A stretch of 64,000 nt of DNA from Fusobacterium perfoetens. GTDB lineage: Bacteria; Fusobacteriota; Fusobacteriia; Fusobacteriales; Fusobacteriaceae. Positions 37,701 through 51,985 of this stretch are shown here, piece after piece (position 1 is the first letter of the stretch; every line of letters begins with the position of its first letter). The stretch spans positions 62,001-126,000 of the forward strand of contig NZ_JADYUD010000001.1 in assembly GCF_021531595.1 (NCBI RefSeq), given 5' to 3'. Both the position numbers and the translations under genes were made by a program. The notes beneath the pieces are model-generated. The model did no database searches, was not told where the DNA came from, and was given only the letters and a program-made list of their open reading frames with translations.

Positions 37701-40700
37701 ATGAAAAATTTAGTTAGCACAGAAAAAATGCTGAAACACTGGTTAAAAAAGAGAGTAACAATTACAACAGCAACTGTTGTAGGATTTTTATTAATGGGAA
37801 CAGCTGCTTTTGGAGAAGAAATAACTAGCAAAGTAGAGATAAATGATAATTATACTGTAGAAAAAGAAAAGCATATAAATGTAGTAGTAAAAGAAGAAAA
37901 GACACAGGCTAAAGGAATTCAAATAAACAGAGGTAACCCAAAAGTTAAAGTTGAAAATAAAGGCAGCATTAATGTACAAGGGAAGAAATATTATGCTAAA
38001 GGAATTCATGCATATAATGATGTTGAAATTATAAATGATGGAAGTATTATGATAACAGGAAAAGCAGATGTTCAAGGTATTCAAGGAGAAAATAACATAA
38101 ATGTAACTGTTAAAAATGGAGAAAATGCAAAAATAACAACAAGTGGAACAGGAAAAGTATTTGCTATTCAGACAAATGGAACAGGAAGAGGGGAAATAGA
38201 AAATAGTGGAACTATAAGTACTAATTCTATGGAAAAAGCTGGTGTTGCAATGACAATATCTTTTCAAAATGGTGGAACTGTTTTAAATAAAAAAAGTGCA
38301 CTTATTGAAGCAAGTGCCCCGGAAGGTCCAGCTACAGGAATTTATGCTAATGCAAAAGGAGAGAAAGATACTAAAATCACAAATAATGGAACAATAAATG
38401 CTTCAGGAAAGACTTTGGCTACAGGAATACATTTAAATGTAAATGAAGATTATTCAGGTACAACAGAAAATATGATTGAAAATAATGGAGAAATTATAGC
38501 TTCAAGTGATAACTTTGCTTCAGCAATTACAGTTACAAATAAATCAAATAAAAAAATTTCTATTAAAAATGGAGAAAATGGAATATTAAATGTAGATGGA
38601 AAAGGAGATCATAAAACAGGAGCAGTAAGATTAGATAGCACAAATGGAGAAATTAGTTTTATTAATAATGGAACTATTAAAATAAAAGATGGAACAGCAA
38701 TATCTATAAAAGGAGAAAGTGTAAAAGCTGAAATTGGAGGAAAAGTAGAAGTTTCTGGTAATAGTATAGTTGTAAAAAATACAGATGGAACAGCAGAAAT
38801 TACTGGAACTATAACATTAACAGATAAAACACAGCAAGACATAACACAAGACGATATTAACAACCTTTTCAGAGGAGAAGTAAAAATAACAGGTATCATT
38901 GCAGATAAAAATAATGTACATTATAAAACAAATAATATAGTTTGTTTAGAAAAAGGAACGACTGATGATATTAATGCTCTTGGAAAAGATAGTCAGTCAG
39001 TAACTATGGGAAATAAAAATGTTGATATTAATAAGAATGATTCAGTTGTAGCTGGAATAACAGCAGGGAAAGAAGCAGCAAATATTAAATCTTTAAATAT
39101 TATTGGAGATGTAAAAATTGGAGAATTTAAAAATGATTCTAAAATAGATAAACAAGAAACAATTAAACTTGCTGTAAAAGATTTAAATCTTGATGCTAAT
39201 GGAAAACTTCATATTGCACAGGGAGACATTTTAGAAATAATAGGAAGTAATGTAAATAAACTTGAAAATTTAGAAGAAAAGAACAAAGAAGCAATCGTTC
39301 TTAGAGAAAATTCAAAGTTAATTTTAAATGGAGCAAATGTTAATGGAGCAGGTATAACAGGTGTAGATTCGTCTGCTACTATAAAAACTTTAGGAAATAC
39401 ATCATTTAATGGAATAATTAAAAATGTAGGAACAATAAATGTAGATAGTGGAAACTTATCATTATCAGCAGATTCTAAATATGAAAAAGACACTGATAAA
39501 GCAAATATGACAATAAATGGAAATGTAAATCTTGCAGTTGGAGCTGAAAAAAATAAAGATGGAGAATATACTCAAAATTTCTTTAATAATTCTAATGGAT
39601 TTTTAAATGTAACTGGAAATGGAACTATAACAATAGGAACAGAAAATATTAATGGAAAAACAGCTGTTATCAACTTAGGAGAAAATAATGAATTTGCAAA
39701 AGATCTTACAGGTAAGATTACAGGAAATGGTATTTATGAAATAAAAGCAGGGGATGACTTAACAGATAAAAAAATAGAAATAGTTTATAAATCTAACATT
39801 TTTGGTAATAGCATATTAGACTCTATTAATGGACAAGCATATGAAGTAAATGATTTATTTGACAATAATAATTTAGAAAATAGAAAAGTTCAATTTGATA
39901 AAATCTATTCATCTAACATCTATTCAGAAACAGTAAAAGCAGCTTACGATACTGTTAAAATGAATGAAGAAGCAGTTCTTTCTCTTGCTAGAAAATCTGA
40001 AGTAGGAAAATGGACAGCTGAAGGTAAAGCACTTTACTCTAAAGATGAATATAACAGAAAAGGAACTGTAGGAGATTATTCTTCTGAAATAGAATCAACA
40101 GGACTAATGGCAGCATTTGGTTATGGATTAAATGAAACAACTACAGCAGGAGTAGCATTCTCTGGAGTAAAACAAGATGTTGATACAGATGGTGGAAGTG
40201 CAGATGCTGACTTATTCTACTTAGGATTATATGGAAATAAAGTTTATGGAAACTATGATTTCACAGCAGGATTAGGATATCAATTTGGAGAATATGAAGC
40301 AGATAACACAATAGCTAATGTTCATGGTTCAGATAAATATGATTCTAAAGCATTAAGTGGATATGTACAAGGAAGATATACAGCAGACTTAGGAGATGGA
40401 TTATCACTACAACCTAGAGTAAGATTAGGATATACTTATGTAGAACAAGATGATACAAGAGATTCTTACTTTGGAGTAAGCGATGCAGAAATAACAACAT
40501 TTGATGCAGAATTCGGTTTAGATACAGTAAAATCAATTCAATTAGAAAAATCTAAAGTAGATGTAAAATTCGGAGTATCTTATGTAAGAACAATGGGAGA
40601 TACAGATGATGAATTTACAGGAAGATTCTATGGAACAACAGCAAGTGAAGGATTTAATGTATTAGGAGCAGAACTAGCAGAAAATGTAGTTAAATTTAAC

Positions 40701-40820
40701 TTAGGAGCAGAAGTAACAAATGAAAATGGATTCTTCTACAATGGTGGATTTACTTATGAATTCGGAAGCAATGATACAGATGCTTATGGAGTTAATGTTG
40801 GTGTAGGATACAGATTCTAA
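37701..40820 (+). CDS. Type Va autotransporter with beta-helix passenger
   Basis: The product has 1039 residues. An extended signal peptide spans about 1-38, ending TAAFG. Residues about 40-760 form a passenger with repeated short units of the NNGTINASG / NNGEIIASS type, expected for a right-handed beta-helix. An autotransporter beta-barrel domain spans about 765-1039, with alternating strands, and ends GVNVGVGYRF with the C-terminal Phe used by BAM. Fusobacteria carry many such surface adhesins. No protease triad or known adhesin domain was recognised, so the binding target is unknown. The gene is monocistronic. Confidence 0.95.
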   Translation: MKNLVSTEKMLKHWLKKRVTITTATVVGFLLMGTAAFGEEITSKVEINDNYTVEKEKHINVVVKEEKTQAKGIQINRGNPKVKVENKGSINVQGKKYYAKGIHAYNDVEIINDGSIMITGKADVQGIQGENNINVTVKNGENAKITTSGTGKVFAIQTNGTGRGEIENSGTISTNSMEKAGVAMTISFQNGGTVLNKKSALIEASAPEGPATGIYANAKGEKDTKITNNGTINASGKTLATGIHLNVNEDYSGTTENMIENNGEIIASSDNFASAITVTNKSNKKISIKNGENGILNVDGKGDHKTGAVRLDSTNGEISFINNGTIKIKDGTAISIKGESVKAEIGGKVEVSGNSIVVKNTDGTAEITGTITLTDKTQQDITQDDINNLFRGEVKITGIIADKNNVHYKTNNIVCLEKGTTDDINALGKDSQSVTMGNKNVDINKNDSVVAGITAGKEAANIKSLNIIGDVKIGEFKNDSKIDKQETIKLAVKDLNLDANGKLHIAQGDILEIIGSNVNKLENLEEKNKEAIVLRENSKLILNGANVNGAGITGVDSSATIKTLGNTSFNGIIKNVGTINVDSGNLSLSADSKYEKDTDKANMTINGNVNLAVGAEKNKDGEYTQNFFNNSNGFLNVTGNGTITIGTENINGKTAVINLGENNEFAKDLTGKITGNGIYEIKAGDDLTDKKIEIVYKSNIFGNSILDSINGQAYEVNDLFDNNNLENRKVQFDKIYSSNIYSETVKAAYDTVKMNEEAVLSLARKSEVGKWTAEGKALYSKDEYNRKGTVGDYSSEIESTGLMAAFGYGLNETTTAGVAFSGVKQDVDTDGGSADADLFYLGLYGNKVYGNYDFTAGLGYQFGEYEADNTIANVHGSDKYDSKALSGYVQGRYTADLGDGLSLQPRVRLGYTYVEQDDTRDSYFGVSDAEITTFDAEFGLDTVKSIQLEKSKVDVKFGVSYVRTMGDTDDEFTGRFYGTTASEGFNVLGAELAENVVKFNLGAEVTNENGFFYNGGFTYEFGSNDTDAYGVNVGVGYRF

Positions 40821-43780: not shown

Positions 43781-43810
43781 TTTACTTTTATATATAATAT
43801 ATGGTATAGT
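43781..43810 (+). promoter_or_regulatory. Promoter of the ileS leader transcript
   Basis: TTTACT (43781-43786), an 18-nt spacer and TATAGT (43805-43810), with TG before the -10 (TGGTATAGT), form an extended -10 promoter 33 nt upstream of the leader-peptide ATG. Confidence 0.6.
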
Positions 43811-43842
43811 ATATTTAATAAAAAGAACAAGGGGAGATAAAG

Positions 43843-43890
43843 ATGAATTTCACGAACACTATAATAATAATATCATCAATAATAAAGTAA
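43843..43890 (+). CDS. Isoleucine-rich leader peptide of ileS
   Basis: This is a 15-residue open frame, MNFTNTIIIISSIIK. Six of 15 residues are Ile, and all six codons are ATA. AAGGGGAG lies about 7 nt before the ATG, one of the strongest ribosome sites in the window. It is followed by an intrinsic terminator and then ileS. This is the standard layout of ribosome-mediated attenuation: translation speed through the Ile codons would report charged tRNA-Ile. Only AUA-reading tRNA-Ile (lysidine-modified) would be sensed. It is too short to be a functional protein. Confidence 0.85.
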   Translation: MNFTNTIIIISSIIK

Positions 43891-43996
43891 ACAACAATAT
43901 TATAGATGTTATTATGTGGCGTTGTAAATAATTACTCTTCTAAAAATATAAATTATTTTGTAAAGATTAAGGCAACCTGCATGGTTGCCTTTTTTA
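43864..43996 (+). promoter_or_regulatory. Attenuator of ileS: mutually exclusive hairpins and terminator
   Basis: The terminator stem is AAGGCAACC/GGTTGCCTT (43969-43977 with 43983-43991) with a TGCAT loop and T run. A rival pairing uses 43914-43925 (ATGTGGCGTTGT) with 43972-43982 (GCAACCTGCAT), 11 bp with one bulged C. It would trap the terminator's 5' arm and loop, with an inner stem 43926-43933/43951-43958. The Ile-codon stretch (43864-43884) can pair with 43898-43915, about 17 bp, and ACAAC/GTTGT (43891-43895/43921-43925) is a further alternative. Which state wins under starvation cannot be settled by eye. Confidence 0.75.
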
Positions 43997-44048: not shown

Positions 44049-47000
44049 ATGTACAAAAAAGTATCTACCAGCTTAAATTTCGTAGAGAGAGAAAAAGAAA
44101 TTGAAAAGTTCTGGGAAGAAAACAAGATTTTTGAAAAAAGTATCGAGTCAAGAAAAGGAGAAAAAACATATACTTTCTATGACGGACCACCTACAGCAAA
44201 TGGTAAACCACATATAGGACATGTTTTAACTCGTGTAATAAAAGATATGGTTCCAAGATACAGAACAATGAAAGGTTATGATGTTCCAAGAAAAGCAGGT
44301 TGGGATACTCATGGACTTCCAGTTGAGCTTGAAGTTGAAAAGCTTTTAGGAATAAATGGAAAAGAACAAATTGAAACTTATGGATTACAACCATTTATTG
44401 AAGAATGTAAAAAAAGCGTATGGAAATACAAAGGAATGTGGGAAGACTTCTCTAAAACAGTAGGATTTTGGGCTGACATGGAAAATCCATATGTTACTTA
44501 TGATAATAACTTTATAGAATCTGAATGGTGGGCTTTAAAGAAAATTTGGGAAAAAGGATTACTATATAAAGGATTTAAAATTGTTCCTTATTGCCCAAGA
44601 TGTGGAACACCTTTATCAAGCCATGAAGTTGCTCAAGGGTATAAAGATATTAAAGAAAAATCTGCAATAGTAAGATTTAAAGTAAAAGATGAAGATGCAT
44701 ACATTTTAGCATGGACAACTACTCCATGGACTCTTCCATCAAATGTGGCTCTTTGTGTTAACCCTAACGAAACTTATGTAAAAGTTAAACATGAAGAATA
44801 TACTTATTATATGGCAGAAGCTCTTGTAGAATCTGTATTAAAAGAAGATTTTGAAATTCTTGAAAGATTTACAGGAAAAGATTTAGAATATAAAGAATAT
44901 GAACCATTATTCAGATTTGTAAATCCTGATAAAAAATGCTGGTATGTAACTTGTGACACTTATGTTACTCTTACTGATGGTACTGGAGTAGTTCATATTG
45001 CTCCTGCATTCGGGGAAGACGACGCAAATGTTGGAAGAATTTATGACTTACCTTTTGTACAATTAGTTGATGCTAAAGGAGAAATGACAAAAGAAACTGA
45101 CTGGGCAGGAGTTTTCTGTAAAAAAGCAGATAAACAAATTCTTATTGATCTAGATAAAAAAGGATTATTATTTGATGCACCAAATTATGAACACAGTTAT
45201 CCACATTGCTGGAGATGTGACACTCCTCTTATCTATTATGCAAGAGAATCTTGGTTTATCAAAATGACAGCAGTAAAAGAAGATTTAATTAAAAATAATA
45301 ATAAAATTAACTGGATTCCAAAATCAATAGGAAAAGGTCGTTTCGGAGACTGGCTTGAAAATGTTCAAGACTGGGGAATCAGCCGTGACAGATATTGGGG
45401 AACTCCTCTTAATGTATGGGAATGTGAATGTGGACACAGACATGCAATAGGAAGCATTGCAGAACTTAAAGAAATGTCTCCTAATTGTCCTGAAAATATT
45501 GAACTTCACCGTCCATATATTGATGCTGTAACTATTACTTGTCCTCATTGTGGAAAACAAATGACAAGAGTTAAAGAAGTTATTGATTGTTGGTTTGACT
45601 CAGGTTCAATGCCTTTTGCTCAGCATCACTATCCATTTGAAAATGAAGATTTATTTAAGAAACAATTCCCAGCTGACTTTATTTCAGAAGCAGTTGACCA
45701 AACAAGAGGTTGGTTCTATTCACTTCTTGCTGTTTCTACATTAATTTTCAATGAAGCACCTTATAAAAATGTTATAGTTCTTGGACATGTTCAGGACGAA
45801 AATGGACAAAAAATGTCTAAATCTAAAGGAAATGCAGTTGATCCATTTGATGCACTTGCAACTTATGGAGCAGATGCAATTCGTTGGTATTTCTATATAA
45901 ACTCAGCTCCTTGGCTTCCTAACAGATTCCATGGAAAAGCAGTTCTTGAAGGACAAAGAAAATTCATGTCAACTTTATGGAATACTTATGCGTTCTATGT
46001 TCTTTATGCTGAAATAGATCAGTTTGATCCTACAAAATATACACTAGATAAAGAAAAAATGACTGTTATGGATAAATGGCTTATGTCAAAACTAAATACA
46101 GTTGTTAAAGGTGTAGATGAAAACCTTTCTGATTACAAACTTCTTGAAGCAGCAAGACTATTACAAGATTTTGTTGACGAGTTAAGTAACTGGTATGTAA
46201 GAAGAAGCAGAGAGCGTTTCTGGGTAACTGATATGACAGAAGATAAAATCACTGCATATATGACATTATATACAGCTCTTGTTACAATAGCTAAAACAGC
46301 AGCTCCAATGATTCCATTTATGACAGAAGAAATTTATCAAAACTTAGTAAGAAGTGTTGATAAAAATGCTCCTGAAAGTATTCACTTATGTGACTTCCCT
46401 GTTGTTGATGAATCTGCAATAGATACAGCTTTAGAAGCTGATATGGATGAAGTTTTACAAGTTGTTACTCTTGGAAGAGCAGCAAGAAATGCAGCAAATA
46501 TTAAAAATAGACAACCTATTGCAAATATTTATGTAAAAGCAGGACATGAAGTTGGAGAACTTTACCAAAATATAATCAAAGAAGAATTAAATATTAAAAA
46601 TATTCACTTCGTACAAGACACATCACAATTTACTTCTTATACATTCAAACCTCAGTTAAAAACTTTAGGTCAAAGATATGGTAAGAAAGTAAATGAAATC
46701 AGAACTCTTCTAGCTGAAATAGATGGAAGCAAAGCTAAAAAACAACTTGATGAAACAGGAGTGTTATCACTTACTCTTTCTGATGGAGAAGTTGCAAATT
46801 TAGCTGTTGAAGATCTTCTAATTGAAAGTGGTCAGACTGAAGGATATATGCCTTTAGAAGATAGAGGAATTACAGTAGTTCTTGATACAAAACTTACTCC
46901 TGAGCTTATTGAAGAAGGATTTGTAAGAGAAATTATAAGTAAAATCCAATCAATGAGAAAAGAGGCAGACTTTAATGTTGTAGATCATATTGTTCTTTAT

Positions 47001-47162
47001 GAAGAAGGAAACGATAAGATTAAAGATATTATTTCAAGAAATGCATATGCAATTAAAAATGATACTTTAACAGATGAAATTGTATTTGGTGCAGCTGAAG
47101 GATTTGTGCAAGAATTTAATGTAAACGGAGAAAAAGTTAAATTTGGTGTAAAAGTAAAATAA
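44049..47162 (+). CDS. ileS: Isoleucyl-tRNA synthetase, type 2-like
   Basis: The product has 1037 residues. It charges tRNA-Ile with isoleucine. The HIGH motif is in GKPHIGHVLTR (about 55-60), and KMSKS is in GQKMSKSKGNAVDP. The CP1 editing domain lies between (WTTTPWTLPSN). The length and GWDTHGLPVELEVEK (rather than GWDCHGLP) point to the eukaryote-like IleS2 group, often less sensitive to mupirocin. The editing domain is intact. CAGGAGG precedes the ATG. It is expressed from the attenuated leader transcript upstream. Confidence 0.97.
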   Translation: MYKKVSTSLNFVEREKEIEKFWEENKIFEKSIESRKGEKTYTFYDGPPTANGKPHIGHVLTRVIKDMVPRYRTMKGYDVPRKAGWDTHGLPVELEVEKLLGINGKEQIETYGLQPFIEECKKSVWKYKGMWEDFSKTVGFWADMENPYVTYDNNFIESEWWALKKIWEKGLLYKGFKIVPYCPRCGTPLSSHEVAQGYKDIKEKSAIVRFKVKDEDAYILAWTTTPWTLPSNVALCVNPNETYVKVKHEEYTYYMAEALVESVLKEDFEILERFTGKDLEYKEYEPLFRFVNPDKKCWYVTCDTYVTLTDGTGVVHIAPAFGEDDANVGRIYDLPFVQLVDAKGEMTKETDWAGVFCKKADKQILIDLDKKGLLFDAPNYEHSYPHCWRCDTPLIYYARESWFIKMTAVKEDLIKNNNKINWIPKSIGKGRFGDWLENVQDWGISRDRYWGTPLNVWECECGHRHAIGSIAELKEMSPNCPENIELHRPYIDAVTITCPHCGKQMTRVKEVIDCWFDSGSMPFAQHHYPFENEDLFKKQFPADFISEAVDQTRGWFYSLLAVSTLIFNEAPYKNVIVLGHVQDENGQKMSKSKGNAVDPFDALATYGADAIRWYFYINSAPWLPNRFHGKAVLEGQRKFMSTLWNTYAFYVLYAEIDQFDPTKYTLDKEKMTVMDKWLMSKLNTVVKGVDENLSDYKLLEAARLLQDFVDELSNWYVRRSRERFWVTDMTEDKITAYMTLYTALVTIAKTAAPMIPFMTEEIYQNLVRSVDKNAPESIHLCDFPVVDESAIDTALEADMDEVLQVVTLGRAARNAANIKNRQPIANIYVKAGHEVGELYQNIIKEELNIKNIHFVQDTSQFTSYTFKPQLKTLGQRYGKKVNEIRTLLAEIDGSKAKKQLDETGVLSLTLSDGEVANLAVEDLLIESGQTEGYMPLEDRGITVVLDTKLTPELIEEGFVREIISKIQSMRKEADFNVVDHIVLYEEGNDKIKDIISRNAYAIKNDTLTDEIVFGAAEGFVQEFNVNGEKVKFGVKVK

Positions 47163-51898: not shown

Positions 51899-51985
51899 AA
51901 ATTTTAATTATTTAAAAATATTTGCGAAAAAGGAAATATTATTATAAAATTAAGAAAGAAAATTTAAAAAGCAGTTCAGGAGAGA

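Follow-up and report, generated by a model that had tools for sequence, protein, structure and literature searches.

A probable isoleucine leader-peptide attenuator in front of ileS2, a gene of apparent clostridial origin, in Fusobacteriota

The ileS2 gene of Fusobacterium perfoetens, encoding a type 2 isoleucyl-tRNA synthetase, is preceded by a leader which very probably works as a ribosome-mediated transcription attenuator and tunes ileS2 to the charging of Ile-tRNA, as far as can be judged from sequence comparison and folding models. The anatomy of this attenuator, its conservation, the compensations in its terminator and the predicted bistability of its RNA were observed directly, in the sequences or in the computed folds. 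Stalling at Ile codons would be the signal, and readthrough into ileS2 would change with it. An original prediction had put forward that a synthetase gene is attenuated through a leader peptide in response to Ile-tRNA charging, and this view gains strong comparative support from our analysis: the arrangement recurs in eight of eight ileS2 genomes, and its central folds exclude each other.

All parts of the leader lie on the + strand of the window, by which we mean the whole 64-kb stretch of DNA analysed. A consensus scan revealed a promoter-like site, TTTACT-18-TATAGT with a TG before the second hexamer, at 43781-43810. It is followed by an SD-like AGGGGAG at 43830-43836, the putative ribosome-binding site of a leader peptide frame of 15 codons, MNFTNTIIIISSIIK (43843-43890), which can be read directly and represents segment 1. 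The frame begins with ATG at 43843, ends with TAA at 43888-43890 and contains six ATA codons at positions 7-10 and 13-14 (43861-43872 and 43879-43884), so that direct reading agrees with the ribosome site and the six all-ATA Ile codons originally described. The intrinsic terminator (segments 3:4, 43969-43995), assigned from its hairpin and from compensatory changes, consists of AAGGCAACC-TGCAT-GGTTGCCTT at 43969-43991 and a subsequent T run; its perfect 9 bp compare with 0.1 expected in shuffles.

Segment 2 (43898-43925), delimited by the folds, connects these two parts. With its 5′ portion it pairs with the Ile-codon stretch (43898-43914, 10 + 6 bp), while its 3′ portion (43914-43925) has alternative partners, either codons 4-7 or the 5′ arm and loop of the terminator. 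The latter form segment 3 (43969-43982), of which 43972-43982 are also the antiterminator partner: 43914-43919 pair with 43977-43982 and 43921-43925 with 43972-43976, giving 11 bp with one bulged C. Both the terminator and this competing pairing had been predicted, the pairing at exactly these positions. Pairing of the Ile stretch with 43898-43915 had been proposed as well, and the pairing itself stands at 43898-43914, but instead of the whole stretch it is mainly codons 4-7 (43852-43863), immediately ahead of the first Ile codon and including it, that hide the antiterminator half. In the fold of the free leader, AGGGGAG (43830-43836) pairs with CTCTTCT at 43935-43941; in other species the free leader pairs the start region rather than the ribosome site.

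As long as Ile-tRNA is plentiful, a ribosome would pass the Ile codons and reach the stop codon. The 1:2 hairpin would then close behind it and hide the antiterminator half of segment 2 together with the initiation region of the leader, terminator 3:4 would form and transcription would end before ileS2. With the ribosome site or start region paired in the free leader, later ribosomes would have difficulty opening the hairpin again. Under a shortage of charged Ile-tRNA, the ribosome would stall on the Ile codons and cover codons 4-7; segment 2 would pair with segment 3 once this is transcribed, no terminator would form and ileS2 would be transcribed.

The comparison comprised 98 genomes of Fusobacteriota, eight of which contain ileS2: the window genome (G000) and G036, both from the window genus, and G025-G030 from another genus of the same family. 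Upstream of all eight genes, the promoter, the Ile-run frame, the competing segment and the terminator follow each other in the same order, and the promoter block is conserved in the alignment though the genes further upstream differ. Since ileS2 is located in different neighbourhoods across the genomes, leader and gene travel together in at least four contexts with different upstream genes. Every frame has an SD-like site, a start and a stop codon and six to eight Ile codons, and indels within the Ile run are multiples of three. The deduced peptides, MNFTNTIIIISSIIK in G000, MMTIISIIIISIICLKKNIIDSIVVL in G036, MTLRAAIIIIISIICFQ in G026 and G027, MTLRAAIIIIISIIYFQ in G029, MALRVAIIIIISIICFQ in G028 and MGYRKAIIIISIICSK in G025 and G030, keep the Ile run and vary in their N-terminal residues. 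According to the original prediction, frame and Ile codons should be kept in relatives wherever the terminator is, and this was found in eight of eight ileS2 genomes. The frame of G036 (locus L111) comprises 26 codons, overlaps segment 2 and has extra Ile, Val, Val and Leu codons; apart from this shifted stop, the attenuator is equal to the others. Within segment 2, AATATTATAG is invariant in all eight genomes. The TATAAT of a strong sigma-70-like antisense site at 43928-43899 on the - strand is complementary to invariant segment 2 sequence.

A covariance model built from frame and segment 2 detected the eight leaders among the 98 genomes with 67.8 to 94.4 bits and nothing convincing elsewhere, the next best match (30.9 bits) coming from one of these eight, in reverse orientation. 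Fusobacterial ileS1 genes, which mostly lie close behind the preceding gene, showed no such leader in 22 upstream regions. Similar leaders were found neither before leuS, valS, metG and one further candidate region of the window genome nor before leuS and valS of relatives.

Compensatory changes had been expected for both hairpins, and the terminator displays them: two pairs switch between G-C and A-U on both sides between two sequence groups, 94% of the cells in its alignment are paired, and none of 500 shuffles reaches its covariation score. For the antiterminator, column-wise covariation was not significant in the automatic alignment of the eight sequences, in which it cannot be scored by columns because indels shift segment 2 out of register. 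It was assessed instead by duplexes between segment 2 and the terminator arm of the same species. The 2:3 duplex forms in every species with -8.7 to -11.9 kcal/mol. It is strongest in the window (-11.9 kcal/mol), where 0.55% of the shuffles are as good, and amounts to -11.3 kcal/mol in G036, including a joint change of ATG..CAT to TTG..CAA, and to -9.6 kcal/mol in G026-G029; in G025 and G030 it is weaker (-8.7 kcal/mol) and matched by shuffles in 22-31% of cases.

The two arms of the 1:2 hairpin differ in their variation. On the Ile-codon arm, nine A positions could turn to G with pairing kept, which would lead to Val or Met, and none of them varies, whereas three of six comparable purine positions on the other arm vary between A and G (p = 0.044). 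A frozen arm 1 would be expected if this arm has to code for Ile. In a set of eight genomes, some of them close relatives, this modest difference between the arms suggests that selection acts on coding in addition to pairing.

The effect of a ribosome was modelled by folding the RNA made before the 3′ arm of the terminator, with the ribosome footprint masked. In all eight cases, the free leader had 1:2 formed and 2:3 reduced to 0-0.5 pairs, a ribosome with its A site on the first of the run's Ile codons yielded 7-12 antiterminator pairs, and a ribosome at the stop codon left 2:3 at 0-1 pairs. In the window, 2:3 dominates throughout the Ile run; the four close relatives G026-G029 are predicted to antiterminate only with the ribosome at the first one or two Ile codons. 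Stalls at the codons before the Ile run, which are not conserved, also predict antitermination, and amino-acid specificity hence rests on codon content and not on geometry. In this model, the Ile codons would be the most probable stall site and the source of specificity. A simpler scheme in which everything upstream of the leading edge of the ribosome was removed gave antitermination at nearly every codon and was superseded by the footprint scheme. Since the frame in G036 is longer and runs over segment 2, a non-stalling ribosome would itself cover segment 2 in this genome.

Several other explanations for this arrangement have to be considered. In a window with a GC content of only 28.6%, short frames rich in a single residue are not rare because of the AT-richness, and indeed both strands together contain 17 frames in which the same residue fills six of ten positions. 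The terminator might merely end the upstream transcript, in the window that of the rpsP operon, with an ileS2 promoter located behind it and the short frame being incidental. This is highly improbable given that the consensus scan of the + strand detected nothing promoter-like from the terminator to ileS2 and that the unit of promoter, frame, segment 2 and terminator is kept across neighbourhoods which have different genes upstream. Moreover, only the MNFTNTIIIISSIIK frame among the 17 precedes a terminator. The leader exceeds chance expectation: no frame-plus-terminator of such kind occurred in 30 simulated windows, and folding of the complete leader reaches z = -4.4 relative to dinucleotide shuffles. 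It is also conceivable that the leader RNA senses something else, be it a ligand, a protein such as IleRS, or tRNA directly as in a T-box, and that the frame is a by-product of an AT-rich hairpin. Autoregulation of an aminoacyl-tRNA synthetase through mRNA mimicry is known from E. coli thrS, and because the nucleotides on arm 1 of the 1:2 hairpin core are identical in all eight genomes, constraints from coding can hardly be told apart from those of pairing there. Yet none of the A to G changes is seen that would leave the pairing intact and replace Ile, the SD-like site, start and stop are kept throughout together with indels in threes, and a conserved tRNA-like or ligand-type core is missing outside the switch segments. 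The T-box family (RF00230; Stem I with specifier, T-box sequence) had no match in the window or the window genome, and neither a T-box nor another Rfam family was found at the leader at the gathering threshold, laxer limits leading to chance-level matches only. We therefore regard a different sensor as very unlikely.

The frame is short, Ile-rich and hydrophobic, and the antisense site mentioned above, TTTACA-18-TATAAT (43928 to 43899, 11 of 12 positions), reads across it, as might be the case for a small type I toxin-like peptide of the Ibs kind with its antisense RNA. Such a toxin would leave the architecture of the RNA switch unexplained, and the leader occurs only before ileS2. Its conserved core run consists of Ile only, never Leu, Val or Phe, and the antisense -35 element is not conserved in position, which makes this explanation extremely improbable.

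Within attenuation by Ile codons, the original prediction had gone one step further and suggested that the AUA-decoding, lysidine-modified tRNA-Ile2 is sensed specifically, and hence the modifying enzyme TilS. TilS is encoded, all six Ile codons are ATA in the window as well as in G025 and G030, and the conserved core is ATA too. However, the relatives do not follow this rule: the leader of G036 has ATT, ATC and ATT before the ATA core, its first Ile codon thus being ATT, and ATT also occurs within the Ile run of the four genomes G026-G029. ATA is the commonest Ile codon of the window (50.5%), six out of six being expected by usage alone with p = 0.017; pairing with segment 2 additionally fixes the invariant ATA core. 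As IleRS charges both Ile tRNAs, a lack of IleRS would make ribosomes stall whichever Ile codon they meet. A special role of the lysidine-modified tRNA is possible in principle but not supported by these comparisons, and we consider this refinement unlikely. In theory, the choice between synonymous codons affects the sensitivity of attenuators (PMC1183508).

The gene controlled by the leader (44049-47162, + strand, 1037 amino acids) was assigned to isoleucyl-tRNA synthetase type 2 by scores against PDB chains, by TIGR00392 and by a tree. Its product scored 1114 bits against PDB chain 8c8v, of the type with about 1030 amino acids, and 387 bits against 8c9e, of the bacterial type with about 920 amino acids; from the entry numbers, we take these chains to be the IleRS2/IleRS1 pair of Priestia megaterium (PMC10485003). 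The other Fusobacteriota genomes contain only an IleS1 of about 930 amino acids, with about 37% identity to the ileS2 product over the compared region. The closest relatives outside the phylum are clostridial and 72-77% identical to the window IleS2. A tree computed from 87 sequences groups the eight fusobacterial IleS2 proteins into a single, fully supported clade, which stands among clostridial sequences and adjoins the clostridial locus L034. Judged by bit scores and tree, ileS2 is horizontally acquired, of clostridial origin and distinct from the ordinary ileS1 of the phylum; the original prediction had spoken of ileS and missed the type, the acquisition and the displacement of the resident ileS1. 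The HIGH motif is the canonical HXGH and differs from the G/AXHH of the hyper-resistant IleRS form (PMC10485003).

A T-box lies just upstream of ileS2 in six of seven tested clostridial relatives, including L034, which is in line with the original statement that ileS genes of Firmicutes usually use T-boxes; at the other fusobacterial ileS2 genes, no T-box was found. The covariance model of the leader had no match in 78 clostridial ileS2 loci, which also lack a comparable Ile-run leader frame upstream. Inheritance of the leader from the clostridial donor was rejected on these grounds.

The position of ileS2 in the window is informative with regard to the resident gene. The congeners G031 and G033 share the gene order ffh-rpsP-tex-kinase-ileS1-lspA-glyQ-glyS; the corresponding order of the window reads ffh-rpsP-[leader-ileS2]-tex-kinase-(87 bp)-lspA-glyQ-glyS. 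Between the histidine kinase gene and lspA, at the ileS1 position of G031 and G033, there is a clean gap (51899-51985), the remaining order being that of the congeners. Upstream of the ffh-rpsP region, a large autotransporter-like protein of 1039 amino acids is encoded at 37701-40820 (+ strand), in which N/G-rich repeats and a beta-barrel-like C-terminal end were recognized by eye. The IleRS family model TIGR00392 matched above its cut-off once in the window genome, once per genome in five congeners and twice in G036, and ileS2 is the only IleRS found in the window genome, the completeness of which is 99.94%. From this single match and the gene order of the congeners, it follows that ileS2 and its leader were apparently placed between rpsP and tex and that ileS1 disappeared from its former position. 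G036 retains ileS1 at the usual place, with ileS2 located elsewhere; G025-G030 have kept ileS1 too, with ileS2 in yet other neighbourhoods. Accordingly organized, the attenuator would control the sole IleRS in the window genome, and in G036 and the other ileS2 genomes a second copy beside ileS1, that is, an inducible back-up.

Enzymes of the IleS2 type tolerate mupirocin (PMC4861432, PMC10485003). Because of this tolerance, built-in induction by mupirocin-like inhibitors would follow: a charging-inducible leader would make ileS2 inducible by IleRS inhibitors wherever ileS1 is the main enzyme. The history might have been that ileS2 crossed from Clostridia to Fusobacteria without its T-box, gained the Ile leader once, spread with this leader as a charging-inducible back-up, and displaced the resident enzyme in one lineage, the leader possibly making an inhibitor-tolerant enzyme inducible by IleRS inhibitors. 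For this scenario as a whole, we see about even chances.

T-boxes are infrequent in the phylum, with matches in 20 of the 98 Fusobacteriota genomes and none in the window genome; an earlier T-box survey reported none for its two Fusobacteria/Thermotogae genomes (PMC2494555). High-scoring matches were obtained for G025 (contig C53, 5272-5519, 125 bits) and G035 (contig C2, 400391-400662, 95 bits), in genera otherwise without T-boxes. On its + strand, the window itself harbours two c-di-GMP-I riboswitch aptamers separated by about 500 bases (1260-1335, 59 bits, and 1830-1905, 62 bits).

The proposed attenuator follows the same classical logic as those of trp and his, where a stall leads to the antiterminator (on) and no stall to the terminator (off). 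In E. coli, pheST is controlled by a Phe leader-peptide attenuator, and here, too, synthetase genes follow a short frame of cognate codons and a mutually exclusive antiterminator and terminator. It differs in amino acid and phylum, has no sequence relation and belongs to a resident synthetase operon. Leader attenuators of biosynthetic operons are known from ilvGMEDA and ilvBN of enterobacteria, in which branched-chain codons of the leader peptide likewise control termination. Their leaders combine Ile, Val and Leu codons in front of biosynthetic operons, whereas the ileS2 leader is essentially restricted to Ile and precedes a synthetase gene (ilvGMEDA and ilvBN are listed in PMC1183508). For Streptomyces trpS2 and leuS, classical leader-peptide attenuators before aminoacyl-tRNA synthetase genes were predicted as well, there in Actinobacteria and for Trp or Leu, while actinobacterial ileS genes have translational T-boxes and not leader peptides (PMC1262725). 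Our search of the open-access literature came upon no description of an ileS leader peptide, and the original prediction knew of none in this phylum. As far as this literature shows, ileS would join the synthetase genes with leader-peptide attenuators, as the first case described in Fusobacteriota.

The T-box of clostridial ileS2 shares gene family, signal (uncharged tRNA-Ile) and kind of output with the proposed attenuator but binds the tRNA directly. The same replacement of a sensor has been described for hisS* and hisZ of bacilli, synthetase paralogues with His leader peptides, where the hisS* leader replaces the T-box present in relatives (Naville and Gautheret 2010, PMC2965389). That case concerns histidine and a duplication within bacilli, in contrast to ileS2, which concerns isoleucine, apparently came from another phylum and displaced the resident gene in one genome. 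As a history of a replaced sensor, the ileS2 case is unusually clear: within one gene family, the sensor would have changed from a T-box to ribosome stalling after the gene had crossed phyla, and the displaced resident gene is visible as a gap.
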